64,000 bases of DNA from an uncultured Ruminococcus sp. GTDB lineage: Bacteria > Bacillota > Clostridia > Lachnospirales > Lachnospiraceae. Location: the NCBI GenBank assembly GCA_904418845.1, contig CAJFQC010000004.1, positions 62,001 to 126,000 of the forward strand. The letters are read 5' to 3'. The number at the start of each line of letters is the position of its first letter. Positions within the stretch are counted from its first letter, which is position 1. The position numbers and the translations under genes are program-made. Positions 1 to 18,896 of the stretch are shown piece after piece. A model generated the notes under the pieces. It was not told the origin of the DNA. It searched no databases and saw only the letters and a list, made by a program, of their open reading frames with translations.

Positions 1-1
1 C

Positions 2-301
2 GGAATTGTCAGGGCGAAAGATTTCGATGATGCAGTGGAGAAGGCGGTGTGGCTGGAGCATGGCAATCGTCATTCTGCACATATTCATTCCAAAAATATT
101 GATCACATCACAAAATACGCAAAAGCGGTCGATACAGCGATTCTTGTAAAAAATGCTCCTTCTTATGCCGCTCTGGGGTTTGGCGGAGAAGGATACTGCA
201 CATTTACGATCGCGAGCAGAACAGGCGAAGGCCTTACCAGCGCGAGTACTTTTACAAAAAGAAGACGCTGTGTAATGTCTGACAGTTTATGTATTCGGTA
301 G
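2..301 (+). CDS. CoA-acylating aldehyde dehydrogenase, BMC-associated (PduP/EutE-like), C-terminal fragment
   Basis: Frame open from base 2 (GIVRAKDFDDAVEKAVWLEHGNRHSAHIHSKN...GFGGEGYCTFTIASRTGEGLTSASTFTKRRRCV), typical C-terminus of PduP/EutE-type enzymes; 5' end outside window. Confidence 0.85.
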   Translation, partial: GIVRAKDFDDAVEKAVWLEHGNRHSAHIHSKNIDHITKYAKAVDTAILVKNAPSYAALGFGGEGYCTFTIASRTGEGLTSASTFTKRRRCVMSDSLCIR

Positions 302-316
302 ATGGAGGAAAACGAC

Positions 317-1528
317 ATGGATATAAACCAGGTTAATGTAGAAGCTATTGTGAAATCTGTTCTGGAAGGCATGCTTGAGCAGCAGGGCAGTGCAAAACCG
401 GAAGGAGCAGGAACAGCCGGACCTATTCCTGCTACAGCAAAGGTTGCGATGCTGACAGCACTGGAAAAATATGAAATAAAAGAGTTTCCGATTCCCGAGC
501 TTGGGGATGATGATATTCTCGTAAAAGTAGAGGGGTGCGGCATATGCGGTACGGACGCTCATGAGTTTAAGAGGGACCCCTTTGGCCTGATCCCGCTTGT
601 TCTCGGCCATGAAGGGACCGGCGAGATTGTCAAAATGGGGAAAAACGTGAAGAAAGACAGTGCGGGAAAAGAACTGAAAATCGGGGATAAAGTTGTAACG
701 TGCATGATCTTTAAAGACAATCCGGATATTACAATGTTTGATCTGAATAAGCAGAATATCGGCGGTGCAGATGTATACGGACTTCTTCCCGACGACGAAA
801 TACATCTGAATGGATGGTTTTCGAATTACATACTAATCCGGGGCGGTTCCACTGTATTTAATGTCAGTGATCTGGATCTGGATTCCCGTATACTGATTGA
901 ACCATGCGCAGTTCTGGTACATGCGGTGGAGAGAGCAAAAAGTACGGGGATTCTGAGATTTAACAGCAGAGTGGTTGTTCAGGGCTGCGGCCCTATCGGA
1001 TTGATCTGCATTGCCGTCCTTCGCACGATGGGAATTGAAAATATCACAGCGATCGACGGAGAGCAGAAACGACTTGACTTTGCGAAAGAAATGGGCGCTT
1101 CCCGGTCAATCAATTTTAAGGATTACAACGGGATTGAAGCGTTGTCTGACGCGGTTGCAGGATGCTTCGGCGGTCATTTGGCAGACTTTGCGTTTCAGTG
1201 TACGGGCTCACCGGCGGCCCATTCCAATATCTACAAATTCATCAGGAACGGCGGCGGGCTCTGTGAACTGGGATTCTTTATCAACGGTGGAGACGCTACG
1301 ATCAATCCGCATTTTGATATATGTTCCAAAGAGCTTACGGTTGTCGGATCATGGGTATACACGTTGAGAGATTATGCAACGACATTCGATTTCCTGAAGA
1401 GAGCAAAAGGAATCGGGCTTCCCATGAGCAGACTTATCACTCACAGATTCCCGTTAGAGCAGATCAACGAAGCGCATATTACAAACCTGAAAATGGAAGG
1501 TTTAAAAATTGCCATTGTAAATGAGTAG
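317..1528 (+). CDS. Zinc-dependent alcohol dehydrogenase (BMC-associated) with N-terminal encapsulation-peptide-like helix
   Basis: GCGICGTDAHEF, GHEGTGEIV and GCGPIGLICI motifs of medium-chain ADH; GGAGG 5' of ATG 317 favours this start over 302. Confidence 0.85.
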   Translation: MDINQVNVEAIVKSVLEGMLEQQGSAKPEGAGTAGPIPATAKVAMLTALEKYEIKEFPIPELGDDDILVKVEGCGICGTDAHEFKRDPFGLIPLVLGHEGTGEIVKMGKNVKKDSAGKELKIGDKVVTCMIFKDNPDITMFDLNKQNIGGADVYGLLPDDEIHLNGWFSNYILIRGGSTVFNVSDLDLDSRILIEPCAVLVHAVERAKSTGILRFNSRVVVQGCGPIGLICIAVLRTMGIENITAIDGEQKRLDFAKEMGASRSINFKDYNGIEALSDAVAGCFGGHLADFAFQCTGSPAAHSNIYKFIRNGGGLCELGFFINGGDATINPHFDICSKELTVVGSWVYTLRDYATTFDFLKRAKGIGLPMSRLITHRFPLEQINEAHITNLKMEGLKIAIVNE

Positions 1529-1544
1529 GCAGGAGAGAGTGTTC

Positions 1545-1862
1545 ATGGGAGAAGCGGTTGGCATCGTAGAATTGTTTGGCCTGGTCGCGGCGTTTGCGGC
1601 CGCGGATGCCGGATGTAAAGCGGGAAACGTAACTTTGGAAAATTTTGATAAAAATAAACCGGCGAATGCAGACGAGCTTCCCGTGCCGCTTATAGTTGCC
1701 GTGAAATTCCGCGGCAGTGTGACTGATGTAACAGCGGCTGTAGAGGCGGCGGTAAACAGGGCAAATGAAATTTCAGGTGTTATTACAACACACATCATAC
1801 CAAGACCGGAAGCTGATACGGAGAAAATGTTAAAGATCAGCGGTTTTGATAAAACAAAGTAA
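1545..1862 (+). CDS. BMC-domain shell protein (BMC-H with insertion)
   Basis: MGEAVGIVELFGLVAAFAAADAGCKAGNVTL...HIIPRPEADTEKML BMC fold motif; SD AGGAGAG before ATG 1545. Confidence 0.9.
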   Translation: MGEAVGIVELFGLVAAFAAADAGCKAGNVTLENFDKNKPANADELPVPLIVAVKFRGSVTDVTAAVEAAVNRANEISGVITTHIIPRPEADTEKMLKISGFDKTK

Positions 1863-1898
1863 GCAATTAAAATTTTAAATATTCAGGAGGAATACAGA

Positions 1899-2174
1899 AT
1901 GGTACAGCAGGCATTAGGAATGGTAGAAACAAGAGGACTGACAGCAGCAATTGAGGCGGCAGATGCAATGACAAAATCTGCTGAAGTGACACTGGTTGGA
2001 ACAGAGAAGATCGGATCCGGACTGGTAACTGTTATGGTACGCGGGGACGTTGGAGCTGTAAAGGCCGCCGTAGAAGCAGGAACCGACGCTGCTTCCAGAT
2101 TAGGCGAACTTGTAGCGGCGCATGTAATCCCAAGACCTCACAGTGACGTAGAAAAGATCCTTCCGACGATCTAA
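1899..2174 (+). CDS. BMC-domain hexameric shell protein (PduA/EutM-like)
   Basis: [30 protein letters not shown]...[31 protein letters not shown]. Confidence 0.95.
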
Positions 2175-2206
2175 ACGGGATCATTCGAAACGAAGGAGTA
2201 TATTTC

Positions 2207-2491
2207 ATGGGAAAATCATACGGGCTCATAGAAATTCCGAGTACGACGGCGGCAATTGATGTTCTTGACATTATGGTGAAATCCGCTGATGTTGAATTCG
2301 TTACATGGGAAAAGAAACTTGGCGGAAGGCTTGTTACAATTATTGTGCAGGGCACTGTTTCTGCAGTTGCTTCTGCGGTTGAAGCGGCTGCGGAACATGC
2401 GATAAAAAAGCCGGTTGCGAAAGCGATCATTGCAAATCCCCATGAAGAGATTGTAAGAATCATTAATCAAAGCGCCAGTCGCTTGAGGTAG
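2207..2491 (+). CDS. BMC-domain shell protein
   Basis: GLIEIPSTTAAIDVLDIMVKSADVEFV...GRLVTIIVQGTVSAVASAVEAA. Confidence 0.9.
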   Translation: MGKSYGLIEIPSTTAAIDVLDIMVKSADVEFVTWEKKLGGRLVTIIVQGTVSAVASAVEAAAEHAIKKPVAKAIIANPHEEIVRIINQSASRLR

Positions 2492-2503
2492 GAGGCAGAA
2501 AGT

Positions 2504-2908
2504 ATGGCCGAAGAAAAAAAGGTTGAAGAAAAACAGGCGGCAAAGGCACGCCCAGCCAGGGCAAAGGCTCCGTCAAAGACGGTTCAGAGAGTAAAAAAAC
2601 AGGTTCAGGAACAACCGAAGGAGGAATACAGAATGGTACAACAGGCGTTAGGAATGGTGGAAACAAGGGGTTTGGTAGCAGCGATCGAAGCGGCGGACAC
2701 AATGTTAAAATCTGCAAACGTTGTGCTGGCCGGAACAGAAAAAATCGGCTCCGGCCTCGTGAGTGTTATGGTACGCGGAGATGTAGGCGCGGTAAAATCG
2801 GCTGTTGAAGCCGGAGCCGCAAATGCGTCAAGACTTGGTGAACTGGTGGCAACGCACGTAATTCCGAGACCTCATAATGATGTGGAAAAAATCCTTCCTC
2901 CAATTTAG
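2504..2908 (+). CDS. BMC-domain shell protein with 43-aa Lys/Ala-rich N-terminal extension; internal SD/ATG at 2633
   Basis: C-terminal 91 aa nearly identical to the 1899..2174 product; preceded in frame by [43 protein letters not shown]. Confidence 0.9.
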
Positions 2909-2920
2909 ACAGAATCAATA

Positions 2921-2956
2921 TTTTCAGACGGCGTTAACCGTAACGCCGTCTGAAAA
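2921..2956 (+). other. Intercistronic 16-bp perfect hairpin (no T-tract)
   Basis: TTTTCAGACGGCGTTA-ACCG-TAACGCCGTCTGAAAA between shell gene and pduL. Confidence 0.8.
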
Positions 2957-2986
2957 ATTAATCAAAGAGAAAAGGCGGATTCAATT

Positions 2987-3631
2987 ATGGAAAACAGCAA
3001 TATTGAATTGATCACCAGGCTTGTTTTAGAGGAAATTAAAAAAAAGGATAATACCGGCAATGGTTTTCTTGTACCAGTAGGCGTATCAGCAAGACATGTC
3101 CACCTTACTCAGAAACATGTGGAAGCACTGTTCGGAAAAGGATATGAACTCACAAAGAAAAAAGAACTGATGGGCGGCCAGTTTGCCGCGAATGAGGTGG
3201 TCACTATCGTTGGCCTGAAGCTCAGAGCAATTGAAAACGTAAGAGTGCTGGGGCCGGTGAGAAGCAGTTCGCAGGTGGAAATTTCCGCAACAGATGCGGT
3301 GAGGCTGGGAATTAAGGCGCCTGTCAGGCTTTCCGGAGATATCAAAGGTTCGGCTCCGGTAGCTGTTGTCGGACCAAAAGGGGTGCTGTATCTGGAAGAA
3401 GGCTGTATTGTGGCGAAAAGACATATTCATATGCCGCCGAAAGATGCCCGGGCTGCCGGAGTTTCTGACGGAGACATTGTATCCGTAAAAGCTGATAATG
3501 ACAGAGAAACCGTATTTCATCAGGTACATATCCGGGTGGATGAGAGTTTTACTCTTGAGATGCATATAGATACGGATGAAGCGAATGCTGCAAGAATTTC
3601 TACCGGGCAGACGGTATCTATCATGAAATAA
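2987..3631 (+). CDS. pduL: Phosphate propanoyltransferase PduL
   Basis: VPVGVSARHVHLTQ and CIVAKRHIHMPPKDA motifs; N-terminal amphipathic helix NIELITRLVLEEIKKK. Confidence 0.93.
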   Translation: MENSNIELITRLVLEEIKKKDNTGNGFLVPVGVSARHVHLTQKHVEALFGKGYELTKKKELMGGQFAANEVVTIVGLKLRAIENVRVLGPVRSSSQVEISATDAVRLGIKAPVRLSGDIKGSAPVAVVGPKGVLYLEEGCIVAKRHIHMPPKDARAAGVSDGDIVSVKADNDRETVFHQVHIRVDESFTLEMHIDTDEANAARISTGQTVSIMK

Positions 3632-3656
3632 ACGCCAGGATCGTTGGGAGGTAGCT

Positions 3657-3923
3657 ATGCTCGCAGGCAAAGTTGTGGGAAGTGTTGTTTCTACAAGAAA
3701 AAATGACAGATTAATAGGAAATAAATTTATGGTCGTTGAGATCATCGGGAAAATACAGGACAGGGGGCGGCAATTGATTGCAATTGATAATATCGGAGCC
3801 GGGATCGGCGAGTATGTTCTTGTGGCGCTGGGAAGTGCCGCCCGGATAGGCTGCGGTATGGCCGATGCTCCGGTGGACGCGGCGATCGTTGGGATCATTG
3901 ATGATGGGACCAGACTGGAGTAG
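3657..3923 (+). CDS. EutN/CcmL-family BMC vertex protein
   Basis: MLAGKVVGSVVSTRKNDRLIGNKFMVVEII...GIGEYVLVALGSAAR; 88 aa. Confidence 0.93.
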   Translation: MLAGKVVGSVVSTRKNDRLIGNKFMVVEIIGKIQDRGRQLIAIDNIGAGIGEYVLVALGSAARIGCGMADAPVDAAIVGIIDDGTRLE

Positions 3924-3932
3924 TGAAAGCTT

Positions 3933-5279
3933 ATGGATATAAAAGAGTTAAGTAAGATGTTGCAGCAAAGCGGAATTGTCGGCGCCGGCGGCGCCGGATT
4001 TCCTACATATGCAAAGCTGGTTGAGAGCGCGGAGACGATTATACTGAACTGTGCGGAATGTGAGCCTTTGCTGAAACTGCACAGACAGCTTCTTGAAAAA
4101 TATGCCCGGGAGATCGTGGAAACATTCTATCTGATCGGTCAGACAGTGGGCGCAAAGGATATTGTGATCGGAATAAAGAAAGCATATAAAAAGACCATTG
4201 AGGCGCTGAATGAGTGTATCGGAGATTATGATGGTGTCAGGCTGGGACTCCTTGATGAAGTTTACCCCGCAGGTGATGAAGTTGTTCTGATCTATGAAGT
4301 GACAGGGAAAACAGTCCGCCCAGGCGGACTCCCGATTGAAAGCGGCGTGGCTGTATTTAATGTGGAAACAATATATAATGTGTACCGGGCGATGAAGCAG
4401 GAGACACCGGTCATAGATAAACTTGTATCTGTGGTCGGAGAGGTTGAGCATCCTGTGACCGTAAGGGTTCCGATCGGCTGTACGATAGACGAAGTTGTTG
4501 CAATGTCAGGCGGTGTAACAACAAAAGACGCGGTCTACTTTGTCGGAGGGCCGATGATGGGAAGCATCGGAACAGGCGCCCAGCCTGTCACAAAAACAAC
4601 GAATGCGATTCTTGTGCTTCCGGGTGATCACCTTATTATTCAGTCAAAAAGAAGGAAAGCGTCGATTGACCTAAAGAGGGCTGCCGCTTCCTGTTGTCAG
4701 TGTAATATGTGTACGGATCTCTGTCCGAGAAACCAGTTGGGACATCCCGTCGAACCACATAAGTTCATGCGTGCCGCGACATGTAAGGATATTCAGGATC
4801 CGGAGATTTTTGTGAATACTATGTTCTGCTGTTCATGCGGACTGTGTGAGCTTTATTCCTGTATGCAGGGGCTTGCACCGAGAACACTGATGACCGAATA
4901 TAAAGCCGGGTTAAGAGCGGCAGGACTAAAACCGCCTCAGGCGACTGCAAAACCTGTCGGAAAAGAGCGTGAGTACCGTAAGATTCCGATGAAACGGCTG
5001 ATGGCAAGACTGGATCTGACAAAATATGACAGAGAAGCACCACTTAATGATGTGGCTGCTGATGTACGAAAAGTAAGAGTCATGCTTGGTCAGCATATCG
5101 GTGCGCCTGCCCTGGCAATTGTAAAAGCGGGGGATAAAGTTGAACGCGGACAGGTGATCGCAGAACCGGGAAAAGGACTAAGTGTTGCAATTCACGCATC
5201 TATCAGCGGAAAAGTTATGGAAGTTAACGAAAAATATGTTATGATAGAAAAGCAGGAGGGACGTGTACCAAATGAGTAA
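3933..5279 (+). CDS. PduS/RnfC-like 4Fe-4S BMC electron-transfer protein
   Basis: GIVGAGGAGFPTYAKL N-terminus; CCQCNMCTDLCPRNQLGHPVEPHK and CCSCGLCELYSC cysteine motifs. Confidence 0.9.
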   Translation: MDIKELSKMLQQSGIVGAGGAGFPTYAKLVESAETIILNCAECEPLLKLHRQLLEKYAREIVETFYLIGQTVGAKDIVIGIKKAYKKTIEALNECIGDYDGVRLGLLDEVYPAGDEVVLIYEVTGKTVRPGGLPIESGVAVFNVETIYNVYRAMKQETPVIDKLVSVVGEVEHPVTVRVPIGCTIDEVVAMSGGVTTKDAVYFVGGPMMGSIGTGAQPVTKTTNAILVLPGDHLIIQSKRRKASIDLKRAAASCCQCNMCTDLCPRNQLGHPVEPHKFMRAATCKDIQDPEIFVNTMFCCSCGLCELYSCMQGLAPRTLMTEYKAGLRAAGLKPPQATAKPVGKEREYRKIPMKRLMARLDLTKYDREAPLNDVAADVRKVRVMLGQHIGAPALAIVKAGDKVERGQVIAEPGKGLSVAIHASISGKVMEVNEKYVMIEKQEGRVPNE

Positions 5280-5820
5280 GGCGATTGGAATGGTAGAGTA
5301 TAAAACTGTATCTGCGGGAGTCGTTGCGGCGGATGCGATGGTAAAGACTTCTGATATCAGTATTATCGAAGCACAGACGGTATGTCCCGGAAAATATATA
5401 GTGATCATCACAGGTGATCTCAGTGCAGTGGACGCGGCAGTGAACAGTGCGAGAGTGCAGCACGAGGAACATCTGATCAGCAGTTTTATTCTCGGAAATC
5501 CACACGAGTCGATCTTTCCGGCGATTTACGGAGCTGCTCAGATAGAAGAGGTCTCGGCTCTGGGAATACTGGAAACTTATGATGCGGCGACTATGATCGT
5601 TGCAGCAGATGAGGCTGCAAAAACTGCGTTGGTTGATCTGATTGAACTCCGGCTGGCAAGAGGAATGTGCGGAAAGTCTTATATGTTTTTGTCCGGAGAA
5701 ATCGCTGCTGTGGAGGCAGCCATCGCGCGCGCGAAAAATACAGTGGCAAAGGAAGGTATGTACCTGGATTCTTCGGTGATCGCTCATCCTGACGAACAAA
5801 TAAGGAAAGCAATTCTTTAG
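5272..5820 (+). CDS. Tandem BMC-domain trimeric shell protein, PduT-like
   Basis: Two BMC repeats (AIGMVEYKTVSAGVVAADAM...; ALGILETYDAATMIVAADEA...); Cys38 in TVCPGKY; start 5272 preceded by AGGAGGG. Confidence 0.9.
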   Translation: MSKAIGMVEYKTVSAGVVAADAMVKTSDISIIEAQTVCPGKYIVIITGDLSAVDAAVNSARVQHEEHLISSFILGNPHESIFPAIYGAAQIEEVSALGILETYDAATMIVAADEAAKTALVDLIELRLARGMCGKSYMFLSGEIAAVEAAIARAKNTVAKEGMYLDSSVIAHPDEQIRKAIL

Positions 5821-5840
5821 ATTACGGGAGGAATGAGAGT

Positions 5841-6605
5841 ATGCTTGCAATAGAGAGACGAAATGCAATATTAGAGAAACTTCAGACAGAGAAACGTGTC
5901 GTAGTCGGCGAACTCAGTGAAATGTATCATGTTTCTGAGGAGACGATACGGCGCGATCTTGATAAGCTCGAGAATGATGGATATGCTATCAAGAGTTATG
6001 GCGGCGCTGTCCTGAATGAAAATTCAAACTTCGAGCTTCCATTTAATGTCAGAAAGAACAGAAATGTTCTCGGAAAACAGAAAATTGCGTCTCTGATCGG
6101 CGGGATGGTCAACGACGGCGAAAATATAATACTGGATGCCAGTTCAACTGCCGGTACTATTGCAAAGATTTTGAAAGACAAAAAAAATATTACCATTATC
6201 ACTAATTCTCTGGAGATATCAATCGAATTGATGGAGTATCCGAACTGCAGGGTGATCACAACCGGCGGAGAGACTTCAAGTAAATATTTTGCACTTGTCG
6301 GCCCCCTCACCGACCGGGCGATCAGAGCTTATTATGCAGACCGTGCGATTATATCAGCCAAGGGCCTGGACATGGACGCGGGGTTTACAGACAGTGAGGA
6401 CAGGCATGCGAATAACAAACTTACCATGCTCCAGTGCGCAAAGCAGAAAATACTTGCGGTAGACAGTTCGAAGTTTGATAAGATCGCGTTTTGTAAAGTA
6501 GGTGATCTTCAGGATATTGATATGATCGTAACCGATAAAAAACCGGATGACGGATGGCTTCGGGAATTAAAGGAGCTGAATGTAGAGTGCGTTTATCCTG
6601 AATAG
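5841..6605 (+). CDS. DeoR/GlpR-family transcriptional regulator
   Basis: MLAIERRNAILEKLQTEKRVVVGELSEMYHVSEETIRRDLDKLENDGYAIKSYGGAVL classic DeoR HTH. Confidence 0.95.
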   Translation: MLAIERRNAILEKLQTEKRVVVGELSEMYHVSEETIRRDLDKLENDGYAIKSYGGAVLNENSNFELPFNVRKNRNVLGKQKIASLIGGMVNDGENIILDASSTAGTIAKILKDKKNITIITNSLEISIELMEYPNCRVITTGGETSSKYFALVGPLTDRAIRAYYADRAIISAKGLDMDAGFTDSEDRHANNKLTMLQCAKQKILAVDSSKFDKIAFCKVGDLQDIDMIVTDKKPDDGWLRELKELNVECVYPE

Positions 6606-6630
6606 AATTTGCTGAATTGAATAAATGATC

Positions 6631-6672
6631 AAAAAACAGTCGGATCAGGAATACGTGTCCGACTGTTTTTTT
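6631..6672 (+). terminator. Rho-independent terminator after the DeoR gene / BMC operon
   Basis: AACAGTCGGA...TCCGACTGTTTTTTTG stem with T-run. Confidence 0.85.
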
Positions 6673-6684
6673 GATAAAGAAAAC

Positions 6685-6745
6685 AAAAACCAATAAAATA
6701 AAATATATAATAAACGATTTTAGAGATAAAAACCAATAAAATAAA
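6685..6745 (+). promoter_or_regulatory. Two 18-bp direct repeats AAAAACCAATAAAATAAA (6685-6702, 6728-6745), candidate operator
   Basis: Exact repeat, 43 bp start to start, just upstream of the ABC transporter promoter. Confidence 0.6.
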
Positions 6746-6776
6746 CATAACATCATAAAAAAATAACAATTCAAGG

Positions 6777-6805
6777 TTGATCAAAACACAGACATATGTT
6801 ATAAT
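6777..6805 (+). promoter_or_regulatory. Putative sigma-A promoter (TTGATC-N17-TATAAT, extended -10 TGT)
   Basis: -35 6777-6782, -10 6800-6805, upstream of sugar ABC transporter operon. Confidence 0.7.
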
Positions 6806-6838
6806 TCATTTCAGAAAAGAGATACGAAATTATGCAAA

Positions 6839-8362
6839 ATGCAAAAAGAGGAAAAGGAGCTTTTGGATGTGAATGACGTAATCTTAAAAATGGAGAATAT
6901 CGAAAAGCGGTTTTCTGGTGTACATGCACTAAAATCTGTGCAGTTTGAGCTTCGGGCGGGCGAGGTACATGCCCTTATGGGAGAAAACGGGGCCGGAAAA
7001 TCCACACTTGTAAAGATCCTTTGCGGAATCTATAAAAGAGACGGAGGTGAGGTGACATACTTTTCAAAGCCGGTTCATTTTGCCAATATTGCCGAGTCTC
7101 AGAAAGCAGGGATCAGCGTGATCCATCAGGAGCTTAACATGATGAATCATCTTACTGTTGCGCAGAATATCTATGTGGGAAGAGAGCCTAAAAAGGGCAT
7201 TATGATCGATGATAAAAAGATGGAAGAGGACACAGCGGAGCTGTTTCGAAAAATCGGAGTAAATATTGACCCGTCGGTTCCTCTGGGAACATTAACAGTA
7301 GGAAAGCAGCAGATGGTTGAGATTGCGAAAGCGGTTTCTCATGACTGTAAACTTCTTGTTCTCGACGAACCCACCGCCGCTCTTACACAACCTGAAGTTG
7401 AAGAACTTTTTAAGATTATGAAGGATCTGAAAGCCAAAGGCATTGGTATGATCTATATCTCTCATCGAATGGATGAGATTACGCGGATCTCTGACAGAGT
7501 TACTGTGATGCGTGACGGCGAATATGTAAATACTGTCAATACTGCCGAAACAACAAAGGACGAGATCGTAAAAATGATGGTCGGCCGAGTGGTTTACGGA
7601 GATAAGAAAGAAAAAAGCGCCGTTCCGGAAGATGCGCCGGTTGTGCTTGAAGTAAAAAATCTTAATGCGGGGAAAGAAGTAAAAGATGTCAGCTTTAAGC
7701 TGCGCAAAGGTGAAATTCTCGGATTTGCGGGGCTGATGGGTGCCGGAAGAACGGAAACGGCACGTGCGATTTACGGCGCGGACTTCAAAAGCTCCGGCGA
7801 GATCTATATTAACGGCAGGAAGGTTGATATACATACTCCCGAACAGGCTGTCCGAAACGGAATCTGCTATTTGTCTGAAGACAGAAAACAATATGGCCTG
7901 ATGCTTGATAAATCCGTCACAGATAATACGGTTGTCGCCTCAGTTGATAAATTTACCAGCGGCGGATGGATTAATGATTCTGAAATGTCCCGGGAGTCTG
8001 AAAAGTTCAATAAGATACTTCGGACAAAAACTCCTTCAATGGAACAGATCTTAAAAAAGCTTTCAGGCGGAAATCAGCAGAAGGTAATCGTTGCAAGATG
8101 GCTTATGAAAGACTGTGACATTTTTATCTTTGACGAACCCACAAGAGGAATTGACATCGGAGCGAAGAGTGAAATGTACGAACTGATGGAGCAGCTTGCC
8201 TCAGAGGGGAAATCGATCATCATGATTTCGTCAGAGCTTACCGAAATCCAGCGGTTAAGCGACAGGGTTGTGGTAATGTGCGAAGGAAGGATAACAGGAG
8301 AAATCGATATTGCCGACGCAACTCAGGAGGAAATAATGAAATACGCAACAATGCGGGACTAG
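6839..8362 (+). CDS. Sugar ABC transporter ATP-binding protein (RbsA/MglA-like, two ATPase domains)
   Basis: GENGAGKSTLVKIL, LLVLDEPTAALT, LSGGNQQKVIVARWL, FDEPTRGIDIG; start codon uncertain. Confidence 0.93.
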   Translation: MQKEEKELLDVNDVILKMENIEKRFSGVHALKSVQFELRAGEVHALMGENGAGKSTLVKILCGIYKRDGGEVTYFSKPVHFANIAESQKAGISVIHQELNMMNHLTVAQNIYVGREPKKGIMIDDKKMEEDTAELFRKIGVNIDPSVPLGTLTVGKQQMVEIAKAVSHDCKLLVLDEPTAALTQPEVEELFKIMKDLKAKGIGMIYISHRMDEITRISDRVTVMRDGEYVNTVNTAETTKDEIVKMMVGRVVYGDKKEKSAVPEDAPVVLEVKNLNAGKEVKDVSFKLRKGEILGFAGLMGAGRTETARAIYGADFKSSGEIYINGRKVDIHTPEQAVRNGICYLSEDRKQYGLMLDKSVTDNTVVASVDKFTSGGWINDSEMSRESEKFNKILRTKTPSMEQILKKLSGGNQQKVIVARWLMKDCDIFIFDEPTRGIDIGAKSEMYELMEQLASEGKSIIMISSELTEIQRLSDRVVVMCEGRITGEIDIADATQEEIMKYATMRD

Positions 8363-8411
8363 CAGCAATTTTGTGTTAAAGACAAATTTAAAAGTGAAAG
8401 GACATAGTAAC

Positions 8412-9401
8412 ATGAAATTAAATGAAAAAGGACGCGCACAGTTCAAATTACAGCAAAATATCATCATTCTGATCGCTATGATCGTGCTGGTCATTGTGTT
8501 CAGCGCGCTGAATTCAAGCTTTATTGACCAGTATAATCTTGTAAGTATGGCACAGTCGCTTGCTCCGTACGCTGTATTGAGCCTTGGCGTTACATTTGTA
8601 ATTGCGACAGGCGGAATCGATCTTTCTATCGGAACAGTCTGTATAGCATCCGCTGTTGTTGCGGGAAAGCTTTACACAACAGAAACGATTCCACTTGCCA
8701 TGACGATTCCGGTTATGTGCGGAATCGGACTTCTGATCGGGCTTGTCAACGGACTTCTCATTGCAAAGGCGAAAGTTCCGAACTTTATCGCAACACTGGG
8801 CACGATGATGTTCGCAAGAGGATTTTCAGCGCTGCTTGTTTCGGACCCGAATATTTTCTTCCCGACAAATACATGGTACAACAAGCTTTTCTCCAATGCG
8901 AACGGAATTCCGACAGGTATTATCTGGGTGCTTTTTTTCATGGTGATCTGTATGTATATCATGTATAAGAACAAAGTGGGAAGATACATTCTCGCAATCG
9001 GAAGCAATGAAGAAGCTACAAGACTTTCCGGTATCAATACAGACAAATATAAAATCATTGCATACGTGATCTCAGGACTTGCAGCCGGCATCGCGGGAAT
9101 CTTCTGGTCGGCTTCATTCCCAACCGTAGCTGCGGCGACCGGAAATGGAATGGAGCTTGATGCGATCGCAGGCGTATATATCGGCGGAACAAGTGCGGCC
9201 GGCGGTGTCGCATCTGTATCAGGCTCTGTGATCGGAGCAGCGCTCCTGGTTGTTATCAGAAACGGTCTGAACATGGCTCTTGCGAGATTTAATTTAAATC
9301 TGAATTCTACATATGTAACTTATGTACTGACAGGTATTATCGTAGTAGTTGCTGTTTTGATGGATATTATCAAGACAAACAGAGCAAGCAAAAAGGCATG
9401 A
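8412..9401 (+). CDS. Sugar ABC transporter permease (RbsC-like)
   Basis: VLSLGVTFVIATGGIDLSIGTV, AIGSNEEATRLSGINTDKYK; SD GAAAGGA before ATG 8412. Confidence 0.93.
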   Translation: MKLNEKGRAQFKLQQNIIILIAMIVLVIVFSALNSSFIDQYNLVSMAQSLAPYAVLSLGVTFVIATGGIDLSIGTVCIASAVVAGKLYTTETIPLAMTIPVMCGIGLLIGLVNGLLIAKAKVPNFIATLGTMMFARGFSALLVSDPNIFFPTNTWYNKLFSNANGIPTGIIWVLFFMVICMYIMYKNKVGRYILAIGSNEEATRLSGINTDKYKIIAYVISGLAAGIAGIFWSASFPTVAAATGNGMELDAIAGVYIGGTSAAGGVASVSGSVIGAALLVVIRNGLNMALARFNLNLNSTYVTYVLTGIIVVVAVLMDIIKTNRASKKA

Positions 9402-9465
9402 TTTTGTCTGGCAAAAATTGAATTATAATCCCAAAGGATTATAAATATAAAGAGGAGGTATTTTT

Positions 9466-10551
9466 ATGAAAAACAAAAGAAGGGCAATCGCAATGCTGCT
9501 TTCTACGGCGCTCATGATGGGAGCGTTGGCAGGCTGTGGAAACAACGGCGGTGGAAGCGGCAGTGGCAGTGAAGGAGGCGGAGAATCATCAGACGGCGGA
9601 AAAACAATCGCAGTTATTGCGAAAGGAGAATCTCATGCTTTCTGGCAGTCTGTAAAAGCAGGCGCGGAAGCTGCCGCGGAAGAGAAAGGCTATGACATGA
9701 CTTTCCGCGGTCCGGCAAGCGAAAGCGCAAAGGATCTTCCTTCACAGAAAGAAATGCTTCAGACTGCTCTTTCCAGCAACGCAGACGGTATTGTGATCGG
9801 AACGATCGGCGAGGGATTCACGGATATGCTCGCACAGGCATATGACAAGGATATTCCGGTTGTCCAGTTTGATTCAGGCGTATGGGAAAACGATATTAAA
9901 GCGCTTGACGATATGGGCAAGAATCCGATTGTATCTCATGTAGCTACGAGCAATACTCTTGCAGCGGGACTGGCGGCAGAGAACTTCTTTGAAGCGATTA
10001 AAGAAGATATCGCGGCTTCAGACGGAAATTATGTAGTTGGCATTATCCAGCATGACGAAACACAGACAGGTATCGACCGCGCCGGCGGCTTCGAAGAGAA
10101 ATTTGCTGAACTTGCAGATGCAGACGAAACAACAAAAGGAAAATATAAGATTGAAAAAGAAGTAAAACCGGGTGACGCTGACAATGCATACAAGGCGGCG
10201 CTTGAAGCTCTTTATGAAAAAGGTGCGAAAGCTATCTTCATGTCAAATGAGGGCGTTGTAAAACAGGTATCTGATGCGATCGCGGCTGCAGGCGGAAAAT
10301 ACGATGATGTTAAATTCTGCGGATTTGATGCGGGTACAAAACAGATTGAATGGATGAAAGCTGAATCAGGAGCAAAACTTATCGGTTCTGTTGCCCAGGA
10401 TTCTTATCAGATCGGATATGATGCTGTAATGCAGTGTATCAACGCTATCGAAGGAAGCACTGTTGAGGAAAAAGTTGACATCGCCGGTGCATGGTGGGAT
10501 GCAACAAACGTTGATGAGATGAAAGAAAAGAATCTCGTTTACGAGGGATAA
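9466..10551 (+). CDS. Sugar ABC transporter substrate-binding lipoprotein (RbsB-like)
   Basis: Lipobox LAGC at N-terminus; periplasmic-binding-protein fold features (IAVIAKGESHAFWQSVKAGAEAAAEEKGYDMTFRGP). Confidence 0.93.
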   Translation: MKNKRRAIAMLLSTALMMGALAGCGNNGGGSGSGSEGGGESSDGGKTIAVIAKGESHAFWQSVKAGAEAAAEEKGYDMTFRGPASESAKDLPSQKEMLQTALSSNADGIVIGTIGEGFTDMLAQAYDKDIPVVQFDSGVWENDIKALDDMGKNPIVSHVATSNTLAAGLAAENFFEAIKEDIAASDGNYVVGIIQHDETQTGIDRAGGFEEKFAELADADETTKGKYKIEKEVKPGDADNAYKAALEALYEKGAKAIFMSNEGVVKQVSDAIAAAGGKYDDVKFCGFDAGTKQIEWMKAESGAKLIGSVAQDSYQIGYDAVMQCINAIEGSTVEEKVDIAGAWWDATNVDEMKEKNLVYEG

Positions 10552-10566
10552 CATGCAATTTAATGA

Positions 10567-10592
10567 GGGAACCGGAGCCGGTTCCCTTTTTT
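10567..10592 (+). terminator. Rho-independent terminator
   Basis: GGGAACCGGAGCCGGTTCCCTTTTTT. Confidence 0.85.
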
Positions 10593-10719
10593 AAAAGAAA
10601 ATATCTGAATATTATTTTGGATATTTTCCCGGGACTGTTCCCTTGTATTTCTTACAATGTTTTAATAAAGCATGATTCGGCTTTGAAACCGGATGTGCAG
10701 ATCTGAGAGGAGGAAGACA

Positions 10720-12198
10720 TTGAGACAAGACAGAAAACAGGTGCTGGCATTTGATTTCGGGGCGTCCAGCGGAAGAGCCATACTTGCCTCACTGGAGGAC
10801 GGGAAAATTGTCATGGAAGAAGTGCATCGGTTTTCAAATGATCCTGTATTTATCGGAAATACAATGTACTGGGATACGTTAAGACAGTTTTTCGAAATTA
10901 AGCAGGGTATGTTGAAAGCAAAGCAGAAAGGCGGCTTTGAAAGCGTAGGAATAGACACCTGGGGCGTTGACTTCGGACTTCTCGATGAACACGGCGCGCT
11001 GCTGGAAAGCGCCGTACATTACAGAGATGACCGTACACTGGGGAGACAGGAGGAAGTTTTCAAAGTAATGCCCAAAGATGAACTGTATGAACTTACAGGT
11101 GTTCAGTTTGAAAATTTCAATACTGTTTTCCAGCTATATTCCCTTGTCCAGGACCGTCCGTGGCTTCTGGAGCGCGCAGACAAGCTGCTGTTAACACCGG
11201 ATCTATTTAATTATTTCCTGACAGGTGAAAAAAAGGCAGAATATACAATGTCTACGACCACACAGCTTATGGACATCAGGAACAAGGAATGGTCTGACAA
11301 GATTCTGAATCGGCTTTCAATTCCCCGGAAGCTGTTCCCTGAGATCATCCTCAGCGGAACAGTTGTGGGAACGATCGATCAGAAGATCTGTGATGAGTTA
11401 GGCATTGCGCCGGCAAAGGTTGTGGCCGTTGCAAGTCATGACACACAGAGCGCAGTTGCAGCAGTCCCTACTCAGGAGGATGATTTTATTTTTATCAGCT
11501 GCGGAACATGGAGCCTGTTCGGAACGGAATTAAAGAGTCCCGTAATCGGAAAAGAATCTTACGAGCTAAACGTAAGTAATGAAGGCGGATACGGCGGTAC
11601 CTACAACTTCCTGAAAAATATTATCGGTCTGTGGCTCGCGCAGGAAAGCAGACGCCAGTGGGCAAGAGAAGGGAAGGACTACAGTTTCGGGGAACTGGAA
11701 CAGCTTGCCAGGAAAGCAGAACCGTTTTTAAGCTTTATAGATCCGGATTCTCCAGAATTCAATTCCGCGGGAGATATCCCGGGAAGAATCCGTGCCTTTT
11801 GCGAAAGAACCGGCCAGAAGGTTCCGCAGACCCAGGGGGATATTATGTGCTGCATCAATCAGAGCCTCGCTTTGAAATACAGATATACACTTGAACAGAT
11901 AGAGGCATGCACAGGGAAACAGTTCCCCATGATCAATATGATCGGCGGCGGAATCCAGAGCGGGCTGCTCTGCCAGATGACCGCAAGCGCCAGCAAAAGA
12001 AAAGTACTTGCAGGCCCGGTGGAAGCCACGGCCCTTGGAAATATTGCGGTTCAGATGATGTCTCTCGGAGAAATCAAGAATCTTAAAGAGGCGCGCAGGA
12101 TCATTGCAGATTCGGAACAGACATATGAGTATCTGCCGAAAGACGGTCAAAAATGGGATACTGCATATGAGAAGTTTAAATCAATCATTCAAAAGTAA
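10720..12198 (+). CDS. FGGY-family carbohydrate kinase (rhamnulokinase-type, probable fuculokinase in this context)
   Basis: [44 protein letters not shown] 10720 with GAGGAGG SD (ATG 10693 alternative). Confidence 0.85.
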
Positions 12199-12211
12199 GG
12201 AGGAAATCAAA

Positions 12212-14005
12212 ATGGCAGAAAACAGATTAATCGGCGGATATCCGGTTATCGGAATCCGTCCTACCATCGATGGAAGAAGAGGTGCGTTAAAAGTACGTGA
12301 AGGCCTCGAAGATCAGACAATGGGTATGGCGAAAGCAGCCGCGAAGTTGTTTGAAGAAAATCTGCGCTATTCAAATGGAGAGCCGGTGAAGGTCGTGCTC
12401 GCCGACACAACGATCGGACGTGTGGCAGAGTCCGCAGCCTGTGCTGAAAAATTCAGAAGAGAAGGCGTAGATATTACACTGACTGTTACACCGTGCTGGT
12501 GCTATGGTTCTGAGACAATGGATATGGATCCGCAGACGATTAAAGGCGTGTGGGGACTGAATGCAACAGAAAGGCCGGGAGCCGTATATCTGGCATCTGT
12601 TCTTGCGACCCATGCGCAGAAGGGACTTCCGGCATTTGGCATTTACGGACATGATGTTGTGGATGCGGATGATGATTCCGTTCCGGAAGATGTAAAAGAG
12701 AAACTTTTAAGATTTGGCCGTGCGGCCGTTGCGGCAGCATCAATGAGAGGAAAATCATACCTTCAGATCGGATCGATCTGTATGGGAATCGGAGGATCGA
12801 TCATTGATTCTGACTTTATCGAGTCTTATCTGGGCATGCGCGTTGAATCTGTTGACGAGGTTGAGATCATCAGACGTATGACAGAAGGTATTTACGATAA
12901 GGCTGAATTTGAAAAAGCGCTGGCATGGGCAAAAGAAAAATGCCGGATCGGCTTTGACAAAAACCCGGACGAACTTAAAATGAGCGACGAAAAGAAGGCG
13001 GAGCAATTTGAATTCGTTGTTAAAATGGCAGTGATCATTAAAGATCTGATGAATGGAAACAGCAATCTTCCGGCAGGATGCGAGGAAGAAATGGTAGGAC
13101 ATAACGCCATTGCGGCCGGATTCCAGGGACAGAGACAATGGACGGATTTCTACCCGAACGGGGACTTTGCGGAAGCAATTCTGAACAGCTCTTTTGACTG
13201 GAATGGTGCGAGGGAACCATATATTCTGGCCACAGAGAATGATGTTCTGAACGGGCTCGGCATGCTTTTTATGAAACTGCTTACAAACCGGGCGCAGATT
13301 TTTGCTGATGTGCGTACATACTGGAGTTCGGATGCAGTGAAACGTGTGACTGGTTATGAACTGGAAGGCAAGGCGAAAGAGGCGGACGGATTCATCCATC
13401 TGATCAACTCCGGCGCCGCGTGTCTGGATGCGAACGGGCAGTCTAAAGATGCTGAAGGAAGCGGAACAATGAAACCGTGGTATGAGGTGACAGAGGCAGA
13501 TCAGGACGCAATGCTCGCGGCTACAACATGGAATCCGGCAGATAACGGATATTTCCGCGGCGGCGGCTTCTCTTCAAGATTCCTGACAGAAGCCCAGATG
13601 CCCTGCACAATGATCCGTCTGAATCTTGTAAAAGGTCTTGGACCGGTCCTTCAGATCGCGGAAGGATGGACGGTCAAGCTTCCGGACGAAGTTTCAGACA
13701 AGCTTTGGAAGAGGACAGACTATACGTGGCCGTGCACATGGTTTGCACCGAGATGTACCGGTGAGGGCGCGTTTAAGACAGCTTATAATGTTATGAACAA
13801 CTGGGGCGCAAACCACGGCGCTATTTCCTATGGGCATATCGGGGCAGATCTGATCACAATGTGTTCGATGCTGAGGATTCCTGTATGCATGCATAATGTT
13901 CCGGAAAAGGATATTTTCAGGCCGGCTGCATGGAATGCGTTCGGAATGGACAAAGAAGGACAGGATTACAGAGCGTGCGCTGCATACGGACCGCTGTATA
14001 AATAA
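12212..14005 (+). CDS. fucI: L-fucose isomerase
   Basis: [87 protein letters not shown] 12212 with AAGGAGG. Confidence 0.95.
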
Positions 14006-14037
14006 CGGATTACCGGAGAAAGGATGTTCAGGAAAAG

Positions 14038-14484
14038 ATGTTAAAAGGAATTCCTTCTATTTTATCACCGGAGTTATTAAAGGTGCTCTGTGAAATGGGC
14101 CACAGCGACCGTCTTGTAATTGCGGACGGCAATTTCCCTTCCGAATCTATGGGAAAAGACGCTGTCGTCATCCGTATGGACGGGCATGGGGTTCCGGAAA
14201 TCCTTGATGCTGTACTTCAGGTATTTCCGCTGGATACTTATACAGATAAACCGGTGAATTTAATGGAACTTATGCCACAGGATGTGGGAAAAGTTGAGGC
14301 GTCGATCTGGGATACTTATAAGGAGATAGTTTCCCGGCATGACTCCAGAGGTGCAGATGCGGTAGGAAATATCGAACGTTTTGCGTTTTACGAGGAAGCG
14401 AAGAAGGTATACTGTATCATTGCAACAGGGGAAACAGCGATTTATGCCAATGTAATGCTGCAAAAAGGCGTTGTCATCAACTAA
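14038..14484 (+). CDS. fucU: RbsD/FucU-family L-fucose mutarotase
   Basis: MLKGIPSILSPELLKVLCEMGHSDRLVIADGNFPSES. Confidence 0.93.
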   Translation: MLKGIPSILSPELLKVLCEMGHSDRLVIADGNFPSESMGKDAVVIRMDGHGVPEILDAVLQVFPLDTYTDKPVNLMELMPQDVGKVEASIWDTYKEIVSRHDSRGADAVGNIERFAFYEEAKKVYCIIATGETAIYANVMLQKGVVIN

Positions 14485-14503
14485 CAGAATAACCGAGACA
14501 GCA

Positions 14504-14558
14504 GTAAGGAGCTTCAGATGGGTATTGACTTATCCTCTGAAGTTCCTTTATTCTTTTA
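14504..14558 (+). terminator. Probable terminator after fucU
   Basis: AAGGAGCTTCAGA...TCTGAAGTTCCTTT imperfect stem followed by T-rich sequence. Confidence 0.5.
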
Positions 14559-14586
14559 TCTGTAAAAAATATGCAGGGAGGGTTTC

Positions 14587-16185
14587 ATGCTCAGAATCAG
14601 CCAGCTCATACTTCCGGTGGGACATACGCCGGAGCAGTTGAGGAAAAAGTTATTGCGCACAGCACATATGAAAGAAAATGAATTGAAAAGCTTTGCCATA
14701 CGCAGACGTTCTCTTGACGCGAGAAAAAAACCGGAGCTGTATTATGTCTATACAGTGGACTTTTCCGCAGAAAATGAAAACCGTGTTATCAGGCAGACAA
14801 AAGGAAAGGCACAGAAAGTCACGGAAAAGCCATATCACGTGCCGAAACATGGCACAGAGTCCCTTAAAGAGCGCCCGGTTATTATCGGAAGCGGTCCGGC
14901 GGGTTTATTCTGCGCCTATCTTCTGGCAATCGAAGGATATTCTCCTCTTATTGTAGAGCGTGGAGCGCCTGTCCGTGAGCGCAGGAAAGACATAGAGCGT
15001 TTCTGGGAGACAGGGGTGCTTGACACAGCCTCAAATGTCCAGTTCGGCGAGGGCGGCGCAGGGACATTCTCCGATGGGAAGCTGAATACAATGGTAAAAG
15101 ATCTGGCGGGGAGAAACCGCTATGTGCTGGAAATCTTTGTAAAGTTCGGAGCGCCCGGAGAGATACTGTGGGAACAGAAGCCGCATATAGGGACAGATAT
15201 ACTGATCGGCGTGGTAGAGGCTATGCGAGGGGAGATCCTCCGTCTGGGCGGCGAATTCCGCTTCCGCAGTCAAGTCACGGATATTCTTCCAAAGGAAAAC
15301 TGTATCGTGATAAACAATGAGGAAAAGATCAGGACAGAAGCTGCTGTCCTTGCAATAGGACACAGCGCAAGAGATACGTTTTCCATGCTATACGGCAGAG
15401 GCTTTTCCATGGAGGCGAAATCCTTTGCAGTAGGAGTGCGTGTTGAACATCCGCAGCGCATGATAGACACAGTAACTTACGGAAGAGAAGAAAGAGGCGT
15501 GCTGGGCGCGGCAGCCTACAAGCTGACAGAAAAGATGGACAACGGAAGGGGAGTATACACCTTCTGTATGTGTCCGGGCGGCTATGTTGTCAATGCTTCC
15601 TCAGAAGAAGGCTGTCTGGCGGTCAACGGCATGAGTTATCATGACCGGGCAGGAGAGAACGCCAACAGCGCGGTCATTGTGACTGTCACAAAAGAGGATT
15701 ACGGTTCAGACCACCCGCTTTCGGGGGTGGAATTTCAGCGCCGGCTGGAACGGCGGGCCTGGGAGGAAGGAAAAGGGAATGTACCTGTCCAGAGATTCGC
15801 GGACTTCTGCGAAGGGAAAGCAACTGAAAGACCAGGACATATCAGACCAAATATCAAGGGGGCTTATCAGTTTGGAAATGTAAGAAACATCTTCCCGGAG
15901 GAGATCGCAGAATCGCTGGAAAAAGGAATCAGGGGAATGGACCGCAGGATACACGGATTCGCGGATGACGATACGCTTCTGTCCGGCGTGGAGAGCAGGA
16001 CCTCTTCTCCTGTCAGGATCACAAGGGGAGAAGACTTCACCGCTAATGTTCCATGGGTCTATCCCTGCGGCGAGGGAGCGGGATACGCGGGTGGAATCAC
16101 CTCCGCGGCGATGGACGGGATGAAGGTGGCCGAGGCCATCATACGCAGGTATGCAAATCAGTATTCACAGAATTTTAATCCTTAA
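14587..16185 (+). CDS. FAD-dependent dehydrogenase (COG2509-like)
   Basis: VIIGSGPAGLFCAYLLAIEGYSPLIVERG; NVQFGEGGAGTFSDGKL; CGEGAGYAGGITSAAMDG. Confidence 0.85.
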   Translation: MLRISQLILPVGHTPEQLRKKLLRTAHMKENELKSFAIRRRSLDARKKPELYYVYTVDFSAENENRVIRQTKGKAQKVTEKPYHVPKHGTESLKERPVIIGSGPAGLFCAYLLAIEGYSPLIVERGAPVRERRKDIERFWETGVLDTASNVQFGEGGAGTFSDGKLNTMVKDLAGRNRYVLEIFVKFGAPGEILWEQKPHIGTDILIGVVEAMRGEILRLGGEFRFRSQVTDILPKENCIVINNEEKIRTEAAVLAIGHSARDTFSMLYGRGFSMEAKSFAVGVRVEHPQRMIDTVTYGREERGVLGAAAYKLTEKMDNGRGVYTFCMCPGGYVVNASSEEGCLAVNGMSYHDRAGENANSAVIVTVTKEDYGSDHPLSGVEFQRRLERRAWEEGKGNVPVQRFADFCEGKATERPGHIRPNIKGAYQFGNVRNIFPEEIAESLEKGIRGMDRRIHGFADDDTLLSGVESRTSSPVRITRGEDFTANVPWVYPCGEGAGYAGGITSAAMDGMKVAEAIIRRYANQYSQNFNP

Positions 16186-16261
16186 TCCCTATACACAAAA
16201 AATAAATTGTGATAAAATAAATCACTGTATTGTATCATCGCACTGATCGAAGGATCAAGAT

Positions 16262-16960
16262 ATGGAAAAAAACAATACGATTAAAGACATGTATCACGGA
16301 GACCGGCCCTATGAAAAATGTGAGCAGTTCGGGGCTAAGAATCTGACGGACGCTGAACTGTTTGCCGTGCTCTTGCGCACAGGGACAAGAGGAGAGAATT
16401 CGCTTGCCCTGGCGCATAGAATTCTTTGTTCGGAAACTTCGGAACGAGGGCTTCTGAATATCCACCGCTGGGATATGGACAGTCTTATGCGTGTCCGTGG
16501 AATCGGGAAAGTGAAGGCAATCCAGATTTTGTGCCTGTCTGAGCTTGCAAAGCGGATGGCGAGGGCATCAGCTATGCAGGAACTTGATTTTTCTTCACCC
16601 CGGACTATCGCGCAGTATTATATGGAGGATATGAGGCACAGGGAAAAGGAAGTGCTTAAGCTTCTTCTCCTGAATACAAGATCCAGATTAATCGGAGAGA
16701 GTGAAATATCGGTAGGCACTGTCAATATGGCGCTGATCTCTCCGCGGGAGCTTTTCCTTGAGGCGCTCAGAAGGAACGCTGTTTCCATTATCCTGCTGCA
16801 CAATCATCCGAGTGGAGATCCGGAGCCAAGCAGGGAGGATGTCCGTATAACCGGACGCATATACGAGGCAGGGGCCTTGATTGGGATCGAACTTCTGGAC
16901 CATATTATCATAGGGGACAACCGTTTTGCCAGTTTGAAAGAGAGAGGGCTCTTTCCTTGA
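16262..16960 (+). CDS. radC: RadC-family (JAMM/MPN) protein
   Basis: ILLHNHPSGDPEPSREDVRIT motif, HhH RVRGIGKVKAIQIL. Confidence 0.93.
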   Translation: MEKNNTIKDMYHGDRPYEKCEQFGAKNLTDAELFAVLLRTGTRGENSLALAHRILCSETSERGLLNIHRWDMDSLMRVRGIGKVKAIQILCLSELAKRMARASAMQELDFSSPRTIAQYYMEDMRHREKEVLKLLLLNTRSRLIGESEISVGTVNMALISPRELFLEALRRNAVSIILLHNHPSGDPEPSREDVRITGRIYEAGALIGIELLDHIIIGDNRFASLKERGLFP

Positions 16961-17004
16961 AGGTCACGGCCGGGACAGGGCGTTATATAAAAGGGGTAGT
17001 ACAA

Positions 17005-18030
17005 ATGCTGGGGAATGTTTATGGTCTTGATCTGGGAACTTATGAGATCAAGATATTTGATAAGAAGAAAGACCGGATATGGCCGGAGAAGAATGCCATA
17101 GCCATGAAAAATAAAAAATATGTCTTTGCCGTAGGGAATGAAGCTTATGAGATGTATGAAAAATCACCTGCCGATGTGCAGGTTATATTTCCTATGAAAA
17201 ACGGTGTCATCGCTCATTTTGATGATATGCAGTACCTGCTGGGAAGCCTGCTTGGAAATGAACGGCATTTTGCCAGAGGCGACAAATACATGATGGCCGT
17301 TCCTACGGATGTGACCGAGGTGGAGAAAAAGGCATTTTTTGATCTTGTGTATCACTCGGAGGCGAAAGCAAAATCCGTCCGTATCGTAGAGCGGGGGCTG
17401 GCGGATGCTGTCGGCTTCGGTATTGATGTGCTTAAAGAGAAAGGCGTCTTTGTGGCCAATTTCGGCGGAGGAACAACAGAACTTTCTGTTCTCTCCTCGG
17501 GCGGCATGGTTATGAACCGTCTCCTGAAAATCGGAGGAGAGGACTTTGACCTTGCGATTGTTGGATTAGTCAGGCACAGCAAAGATTTCCTGATCGGCAG
17601 GCTTACGGCGGAAAAGCTGCGTCGGGAATTCGGAATCTTTGACCAGAGCACAGAGGCAGCGATCACAGTATCCGGCAGGGATCTCATCTCTGGCGTCCCC
17701 GCACAGACAGACATATCAATCAGTCTGGTGCGTGCCGCTATGAAGGAACCTATTGAAGAATGCGTCCAGTCAATCCGCTCCATGATCGACCGGACGCCTC
17801 CGGATGTAAGAAACGCGATTCTGGAAAAAGGGATCTGTCTGACAGGGGGCATAGCAAACTTAAAAGGACTTTCTACATACTTAAGAGAAAGCACAGGGCT
17901 TAACGTGATGACAATGGCTGAACCGGAGCTGTGTGCCGTAAGAGGACTGCAGAAGATCATATCAAACAAGGAATATTATAAGAAACTGACATATTCCATG
18001 ACAGATGAAGATTACAGGTGGTTAAGATGA
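17005..18030 (+). CDS. MreB-like rod-shape protein (divergent)
   Basis: Actin-fold motifs DLGTYEIKIF, FGGGTTELSVLS, LTGGIANLKGL; directly upstream of mreC/mreD. Confidence 0.85.
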   Translation: MLGNVYGLDLGTYEIKIFDKKKDRIWPEKNAIAMKNKKYVFAVGNEAYEMYEKSPADVQVIFPMKNGVIAHFDDMQYLLGSLLGNERHFARGDKYMMAVPTDVTEVEKKAFFDLVYHSEAKAKSVRIVERGLADAVGFGIDVLKEKGVFVANFGGGTTELSVLSSGGMVMNRLLKIGGEDFDLAIVGLVRHSKDFLIGRLTAEKLRREFGIFDQSTEAAITVSGRDLISGVPAQTDISISLVRAAMKEPIEECVQSIRSMIDRTPPDVRNAILEKGICLTGGIANLKGLSTYLRESTGLNVMTMAEPELCAVRGLQKIISNKEYYKKLTYSMTDEDYRWLR

Positions 18031-18896
18031 AAAGAAAGAATCATACTTCATATACAAACAGGTATATCCTTCTTGGGCTGTCCATATTCTGTGCGCTCAT
18101 GATGCTTTTGTCCTCCTTTTCGGATAAAGTTGCGGGACCTTTCCGGGCATTTGCCAATATCACGGTGATTCCGCTCCAGCAGGGAATCAACCATATCGGG
18201 GGCTGGATGGGTGATATGAAAGATAATTTTTCGACCCTGAAACAGCTTCAGGCGGAAAATGAAAAGCTTCAGGAGCAGGTTGATGCCCTGACGACGGAAA
18301 ATAATTATCTCCAGGAAGAACGTTACGAATACGAACGGCTTCAGGAGCTCTATAAGCTGGATCAGCAGTACGCGGAGTATGAAAAGACTGCTGCACATGT
18401 CATCGGAAAAGATTCCGGCAACTGGTTCTCCACATTTACCATTGACAAGGGACGCGTCGACGGCATTGCTGTGGATATGAATGTGCTTGCAGGAAGCGGT
18501 CTGGTGGGGATTGTAACGGAAGTAGGCCCCACATGGGCAAAAGTGCGGTCCATTATTGATGATGCCAATAATATCAGTGGAATGGTGCTCTCCACATCAG
18601 ATACCTGTATCGTCAGCGGTGACCTTTCACTTATGAGTACCGGCCAGATCTCCTTTGATCAGATGGAAAACAATGACAATGTAGTGGCAGTGGGTGATCA
18701 GATCGTCACCTCCTATATCAGTGATAAATATCTACAGGGAATATTGATCGGCTCTGTGAGTGAGATCAATGTAGATTCCAACAACCTGACCCGTTCCGGA
18801 TATATTATACCTGCGGTGGATTTCCGCAATATTCAGGAAGTTCTCGTAATCACAACGACGAAAGCAGAGCTCACAGGCGAGGGACAGACAGAATAG
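18027..18896 (+). CDS. mreC: Rod shape-determining protein MreC
   Basis: Signal anchor plus coiled coil (LKQLQAENEKLQEQVDALTTENNYLQEE), VNAGSGLVGIV-type region; ATGA overlap with mreB-like gene. Confidence 0.9.
   Translation: MKRKNHTSYTNRYILLGLSIFCALMMLLSSFSDKVAGPFRAFANITVIPLQQGINHIGGWMGDMKDNFSTLKQLQAENEKLQEQVDALTTENNYLQEERYEYERLQELYKLDQQYAEYEKTAAHVIGKDSGNWFSTFTIDKGRVDGIAVDMNVLAGSGLVGIVTEVGPTWAKVRSIIDDANNISGMVLSTSDTCIVSGDLSLMSTGQISFDQMENNDNVVAVGDQIVTSYISDKYLQGILIGSVSEINVDSNNLTRSGYIIPAVDFRNIQEVLVITTTKAELTGEGQTE

Follow-up and report, generated by a model that had tools for sequence, protein, structure and literature searches.

Among the described microcompartment (BMC) loci, those of the GRM5 type are closest to the one analysed here; PMC4207490 lists a DeoR-family gene for GRM5 loci. 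The GRM5 locus of Clostridium phytofermentans (Cphy_1174-1187) has the same gene content and carries its regulator gene last, but its fucose transporter genes, unlike those described below, lie elsewhere (PMC3557285, PMC4207490). PMC3557285 reports that the BMC operon is upregulated 15-87 fold on fucose and rhamnose, that its regulator rises about twofold, and that the fucose transporter responds to fucose only. On this account, control of the transporter by a GRM5-type regulator is not universal, since the BMC genes follow both sugars and the transporter follows one. Our literature search, which included the available parts of both papers, found no operator for a GRM5 regulator, and the literature found does not describe the DNA-level switching of these microcompartment genes.

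DeoR-family control of 6-deoxyhexose genes has been described in the RhaR regulons of Chloroflexales, Rhizobiales, Thermotogales and others, where the operators are imperfect direct repeats with a 10-11 bp period; L-rhamnulose acts as the releasing effector of C. aurantiacus RhaR (PMC3870299). The system proposed here resembles these regulons in its family of regulator, in its 10-11 bp repeats and, in some relatives, in its rhaD-type targets. It differs in the half-site (TCGAAA in C. aurantiacus, AAACMAAYA here) and in its main predicted targets, the BMC operon being joined in this genome by the fucose-uptake genes. No rhaD (TIGR02624) was found in the genome, and the system would therefore not be a RhaR regulon that controls rhamnose catabolic genes of its own genome.

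Results

The BMC locus and its regulator

We analysed a 64-kb stretch of DNA (the window, C4:62001-126000), part of a 2.4-Mb draft genome that is 95% complete. The window opens within a fucose/rhamnose BMC operon, and its first 15 kb contain the following features:

1-5820, strand +: 3' portion of the fucose/rhamnose BMC operon, whose dehydratase and aldolase genes precede the window (locus L009)
5841-6605, strand +: gene for a DeoR-family regulator of 254 aa (Pfam domains), the final gene of the BMC operon
6631-6671, strand +: terminator-like hairpin 3' of the regulator gene, a 14-bp perfect inverted repeat and T tract
6685-6702, strand +: operator-like copy 1, AAAAACCAATAAAATAAA, exact repeat
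6728-6745, strand +: operator-like copy 2, AAAAACCAATAAAATAAA, exact repeat; the matrix match runs on to 6748
6777-6805, strand +: sigma-A type promoter TTGATC-N17-TATAAT with TG before the -10 (promoter scan); the sequence around the -10 is almost unchanged in the relative L040
6839-14484, strand +: operon behind this promoter (ORFs), encoding a sugar ABC transporter, a rhamnulokinase-like kinase, L-fucose isomerase and a FucU-type mutarotase

The locus has the GRM5 gene set, with a glycyl-radical diol dehydratase and its activase, a class II aldolase, PduS, shell genes and DeoR. We named these genes from their ORFs and from the order conserved in two close relatives (loci L040 and L041) and other relatives; family scans at the BMC locus were confined to the dehydrogenase, PduT and DeoR. 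The HTH_DeoR (1.9e-16) and DeoRC (3.9e-47) domains of the regulator both pass the Pfam cut-off, which places it in the DeoR/GlpR family. It fell below the cut-off for every named NCBIfam equivalog scanned (AgaR, SrlR, GlpR, L-fucose operon activator and others), the top one, AgaR, reaching 188 of 260 bits. No other DeoRC-domain protein was found in the genome. Homologues of the regulator are present in 69 of 299 family genomes and in 32 of 58 congeners, and in most relatives the orthologue directly follows PduS-PduT.

The ABC transporter of the downstream operon consists of an ATPase, a permease and a binding protein, and the gene order of the operon is identical in L040 and L041. The ATPase, binding protein, kinase and FucI were named with NCBIfam, and the permease and mutarotase by ORF and conserved order, without a family scan. 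The kinase (10693-12198) matched rhamnulokinase best (457.6 bits, cut-off 528), rather than L-fuculokinase.

A repeated sequence upstream of the transporter operon

The original prediction held that AAAAACCAATAAAATAAA occurs twice, 43 bp apart, between the regulator gene and the transporter promoter, and that the two copies are candidate operators, bound cooperatively on one face of the DNA by the DeoR-like protein or another local regulator. The coordinates and the start-to-start spacing of 43 bp are as claimed, and so is the layout, with the hairpin after the DeoR gene, then the repeats and then the TTGATC-N17-TATAAT promoter 31 bp past copy 2. Our terminator scan, which has a loop limit of 8, did not call the hairpin. 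Across the window, no other exact direct repeat with copies within 100 bp of each other reaches 16 bp. When the intergenic region was shuffled, an 18-bp repeat appeared in 1 of 400 first-order and 0 of 400 second-order shuffles. At up to 3 mismatches the window holds no further match to AAAAACCAATAAAATAAA; at least two matches were seen in 1 of 100 shuffles. The repeat stretch is 83% A+T, and promoter-like sites in the region are no more frequent than in shuffles.

The motif at BMC promoters

The 13-bp core of the repeat, AAAACCAATAAAA, has three exact matches in the 2.4-Mb genome: at 6686 and 6729 in the window, and at C4:59990 (L009:9990), just 5' of the class II aldolase gene in the BMC operon. 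Allowing one mismatch, we obtained 16 genome matches vs 5 for the reversed pattern. For the 18-mer at up to 2 mismatches there was a single extra genome site, C4:56090 (L009:6090), in the gap that separates a ParA-like gene from the first gene of the BMC operon, the one for the glycyl-radical diol dehydratase; there the core has one mismatch. A search ahead of this gene had been proposed as a check, and it turned up this near-copy. The related BMC-operon sites, from matrix and pattern matches, are:

L009:6090-6110
L009:6164-6184, inverted
L009:9989-10009

In relatives, the motif is a tandem RAAAACCAATARAAAC(C)AACA with the half-site AAACMAAYA and a period of 10 bp. It precedes the BMC aldolase and/or dehydratase genes in dozens of loci, almost always on the coding strand and, in most congeners, about 115 bp upstream of the aldolase start. 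BMC promoters thus carry imperfect direct repeats with the 10-11 bp period of DeoR-type tandem operators. IolR of Bacillus subtilis, a DeoR-family protein that controls inositol genes, has the half-site consensus WRAYCAADARD; AAACCAATAAA fits this consensus, a likeness that we take as a lead only.

From regions upstream of relatives' genes, with our genome and L040 excluded from training, we built a 21-bp matrix, near RAAAACCAATARAAACMAMA, in which two half-sites follow each other at a 10-bp interval. With the full matrix, the aldolase site of our genome scored 26.1 bits, window 6728 16.7 bits, window 6685 13.2 bits and the dehydratase site 11.7 bits; the held-out aldolase site reached 26-28 bits over the full matrix and one trained on congeners only. 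When the congener-only matrix was applied to other genera, about half of the dehydratase/aldolase promoters scored 14-21 bits and the remainder 3-13 bits, and 28 control promoters of sugar ABC transporters gave at most 6.6 bits. Conservation of the motif in related genomes, on which the original prediction had in part been staked, is borne out by the relatives' BMC promoters and the held-out genera.

The best match in the window away from the cluster (52879-52899, 16.7 bits) lies in a stretch resembling a terminator hairpin, AAAGACA...TGTCTTT; the reversed matrix scores it equally, and we attribute it to chance. In one relative (G148; L222 near position 1500), a further copy of the motif precedes a gene whose product, longer than 450 aa, resembles class II aldolases and may be a two-domain enzyme.

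The motif follows the regulator

A strict form of the pattern was found in 18 of the 32 congeners that have the regulator and in none of the 26 that lack it (reversed-pattern controls, 1 and 1; Fisher p 1e-6), and a somewhat different pattern in 14 of 69 family genomes with the regulator vs 7 of 230 without (controls, 2 and 5; Fisher p 1e-5), although both p values overstate significance because the genomes are related. The 14 regulator-bearing congeners without a strict match have weaker variants, or sites that are not resolved. Those of the seven regulator-less family matches that were inspected precede mostly unrelated genes. Unlinked matches in two further genomes, G321 and G335, lie in or beside the gene for an unrelated large membrane protein and were set aside as chance.

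As most regulator genes lie in BMC loci, the presence of a BMC confounds this link. In G339 and G350, however, the regulator gene is an orphan with no recognised sugar gene adjoining, and a strong site is found at an unlinked position; in G339 this site is 5' of a rhamnulose-1-phosphate aldolase-like gene, and G350 shares the neighbouring genes. An unlinked rhaD-like gene in G317 carries a pair of sites spaced 32 bp apart. RhaD was named in these three genomes by reading protein sequences, without a family scan. Three loci with regulator paralogues and no BMC genes nearby (L191, L192 and L194) carry sites upstream of the regulator gene itself; no strong site turned up close to this gene in L193 or in the two orphan-regulator loci. 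Because orphan-regulator genomes and BMC-less paralogues carry sites, the link between motif and regulator does not require the BMC: the motif follows the regulator rather than the BMC. We regard it as very probable that at BMC promoters the motif is the operator of the DeoR-family protein. The basic operator would be a tandem of imperfect half-sites, about AAACMAAYA, every 10 bp.

Organization of the BMC promoters

Many aldolase promoters share an arrangement in which the tandem site is followed by about 10 bp, TTGACW, the 17-bp spacer AATGTGGGATTGTGTGG, TAATAT, a few bases and AGAAACAACACAAAACAAA. The promoter parts come from a pattern scan, which picked an unrelated promoter in several loci. 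The spacer consensus is conserved across genera (L009:9989-10060 and the aldolase upstream regions of L071-L104), which is seldom the case for the sequence separating -35 from -10. Its reverse complement resembles the half-site, and we infer that the spacer may itself be bound by the regulator. The aldolase promoter of our genome combines the upstream site with TTGACA-TGTGTGGTTTTGTGTGT-TATTAT. At the dehydratase gene, the inverted match at L009:6164 lies immediately before a TATAAT, where the promoter scan called no promoter.

The transporter copies and rival explanations

In both window copies, the first half-site matches the motif exactly and the second is degenerate. Their score was reached by 3 of 500 region shuffles with the full matrix and by 22 of 500 with the genus-trained matrix, and the reversed matrix gave 14.3 bits nearby, at 6679. 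In L040, whose regulator is 93% identical, TAAAAACCAATAAAA of copy 2 is unchanged, and copy 1 is present in diverged form 44 bp ahead of it, before the transporter; both are kept despite a gene inserted between deoR and the transporter. This insert (L040:10770-11950) resembles iron-containing alcohol dehydrogenases. In L041 (regulator 69% and transporter ATPase 86% identical), the aldolase promoter has the motif and none was found at the transporter, such that the transporter copies are conserved in one of the two close relatives examined. The motif-less promoter of L041 (L041:11857-11931) appears to be flanked by an inverted pair, TTGCACAATAA / TTATTGTGCAA, and an apparent AraC-like gene follows the regulator on the opposite strand; together these suggest that the L041 transporter may be under different control.

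The reading of the repeats as DeoR operators holds in that they share their core with a conserved BMC-promoter motif that tracks the regulator even where the two are unlinked, and in that the adjacent regulator is the sole DeoRC protein found. It does not hold for the operator unit, which consists of tandem half-sites 10 bp apart and not of 18-mers 43 bp apart. The case is weaker at the transporter than at the BMC, because the second half-sites are degenerate, the scores against shuffles are modest and L041 has no motif there. The claim of helical phasing fared worse: a 43-44 bp spacing is confined to this genome and L040, and other site pairs are about 32 or 60-65 bp apart. We consider specific phased cooperativity over 43 bp doubtful. 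On balance, the two window repeats are likely to be operators of the adjacent DeoR-family regulator.

Other readings of the repeats start from their composition and position. A stretch so rich in A+T, directly 5' of a promoter, might stimulate transcription without a specific protein, as a UP element or as phased, bent A-tracts. UP elements usually lie closer to the promoter than these repeats do, and a CC-containing core that is common to BMC promoters and tracks the regulator gene, as reversed-pattern controls do not, would be hard to explain by composition; we consider this very improbable. Another local regulator is less probable still. The type of an operator does not by itself identify the protein, and AraC-type motifs with a 21-bp periodicity are known (PMC3870299), so that direct repeats about 21 bp apart would make 43 bp about two units. 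Yet the unit of the motif is 10 bp, the motif follows the DeoR gene to unlinked places, and no AraC-like gene was recognised by reading, rather than by family scan, the ORFs of 1-20,000 and of 14 kb around the BMC start.

A closer rival accepts the BMC motif as the DeoR operator and regards the transporter copies as decayed or as look-alikes, with the transporter controlled otherwise. The degenerate second half-sites, the modest scores and the motif-less transporter of L041 all favour it, as does the separate control of transporter and BMC in C. phytofermentans (PMC3557285). Against it stand the 13-mer core, otherwise found in the genome only at the BMC aldolase promoter, and the conservation of copy 2 in L040, where a gene was inserted behind deoR; nor was a second DeoRC protein found in the genome. 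We think this explanation unlikely and favour DeoR operators at the transporter as well.

Discussion

The predicted regulon is small and probably joins the fucose/rhamnose microcompartment with fucose uptake. By analogy with its family, the DeoR protein would bind the predicted operators and repress in the absence of sugar; its release would come from a 6-deoxy-ketose phosphate derived from fucose or rhamnose. At BMC aldolase promoters, the site 5' of the -35, the inverted copy in the spacer and the copy after the -10 may act jointly. Measured from the presumed start, the two transporter sites are some 75 and 118 bp away on the upstream side, so repression there would require oligomer contact or looping; the sites may instead serve activation.

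More tentatively, a single DeoR-family regulator might coordinate the entire deoxysugar microcompartment and, in some species, uptake or rhamnulose-phosphate aldolase, in answer to a signal common to fucose and rhamnose. It would do so through a composite switch at the aldolase promoter, made up of a tandem operator 5' of the -35, an inverted operator in the spacer (AATGTGGGATTGTGTGG) and another past the -10.

In Lachnospiraceae, fucose/rhamnose microcompartments convert deoxysugars of host and plant origin to propanediol and products derived from it. With an operator and a regulon predicted in concrete form, the control of their genes becomes directly testable, and a candidate sugar-inducible promoter is at hand. 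The predicted operator would also allow regulated genes to be found in uncultured relatives.
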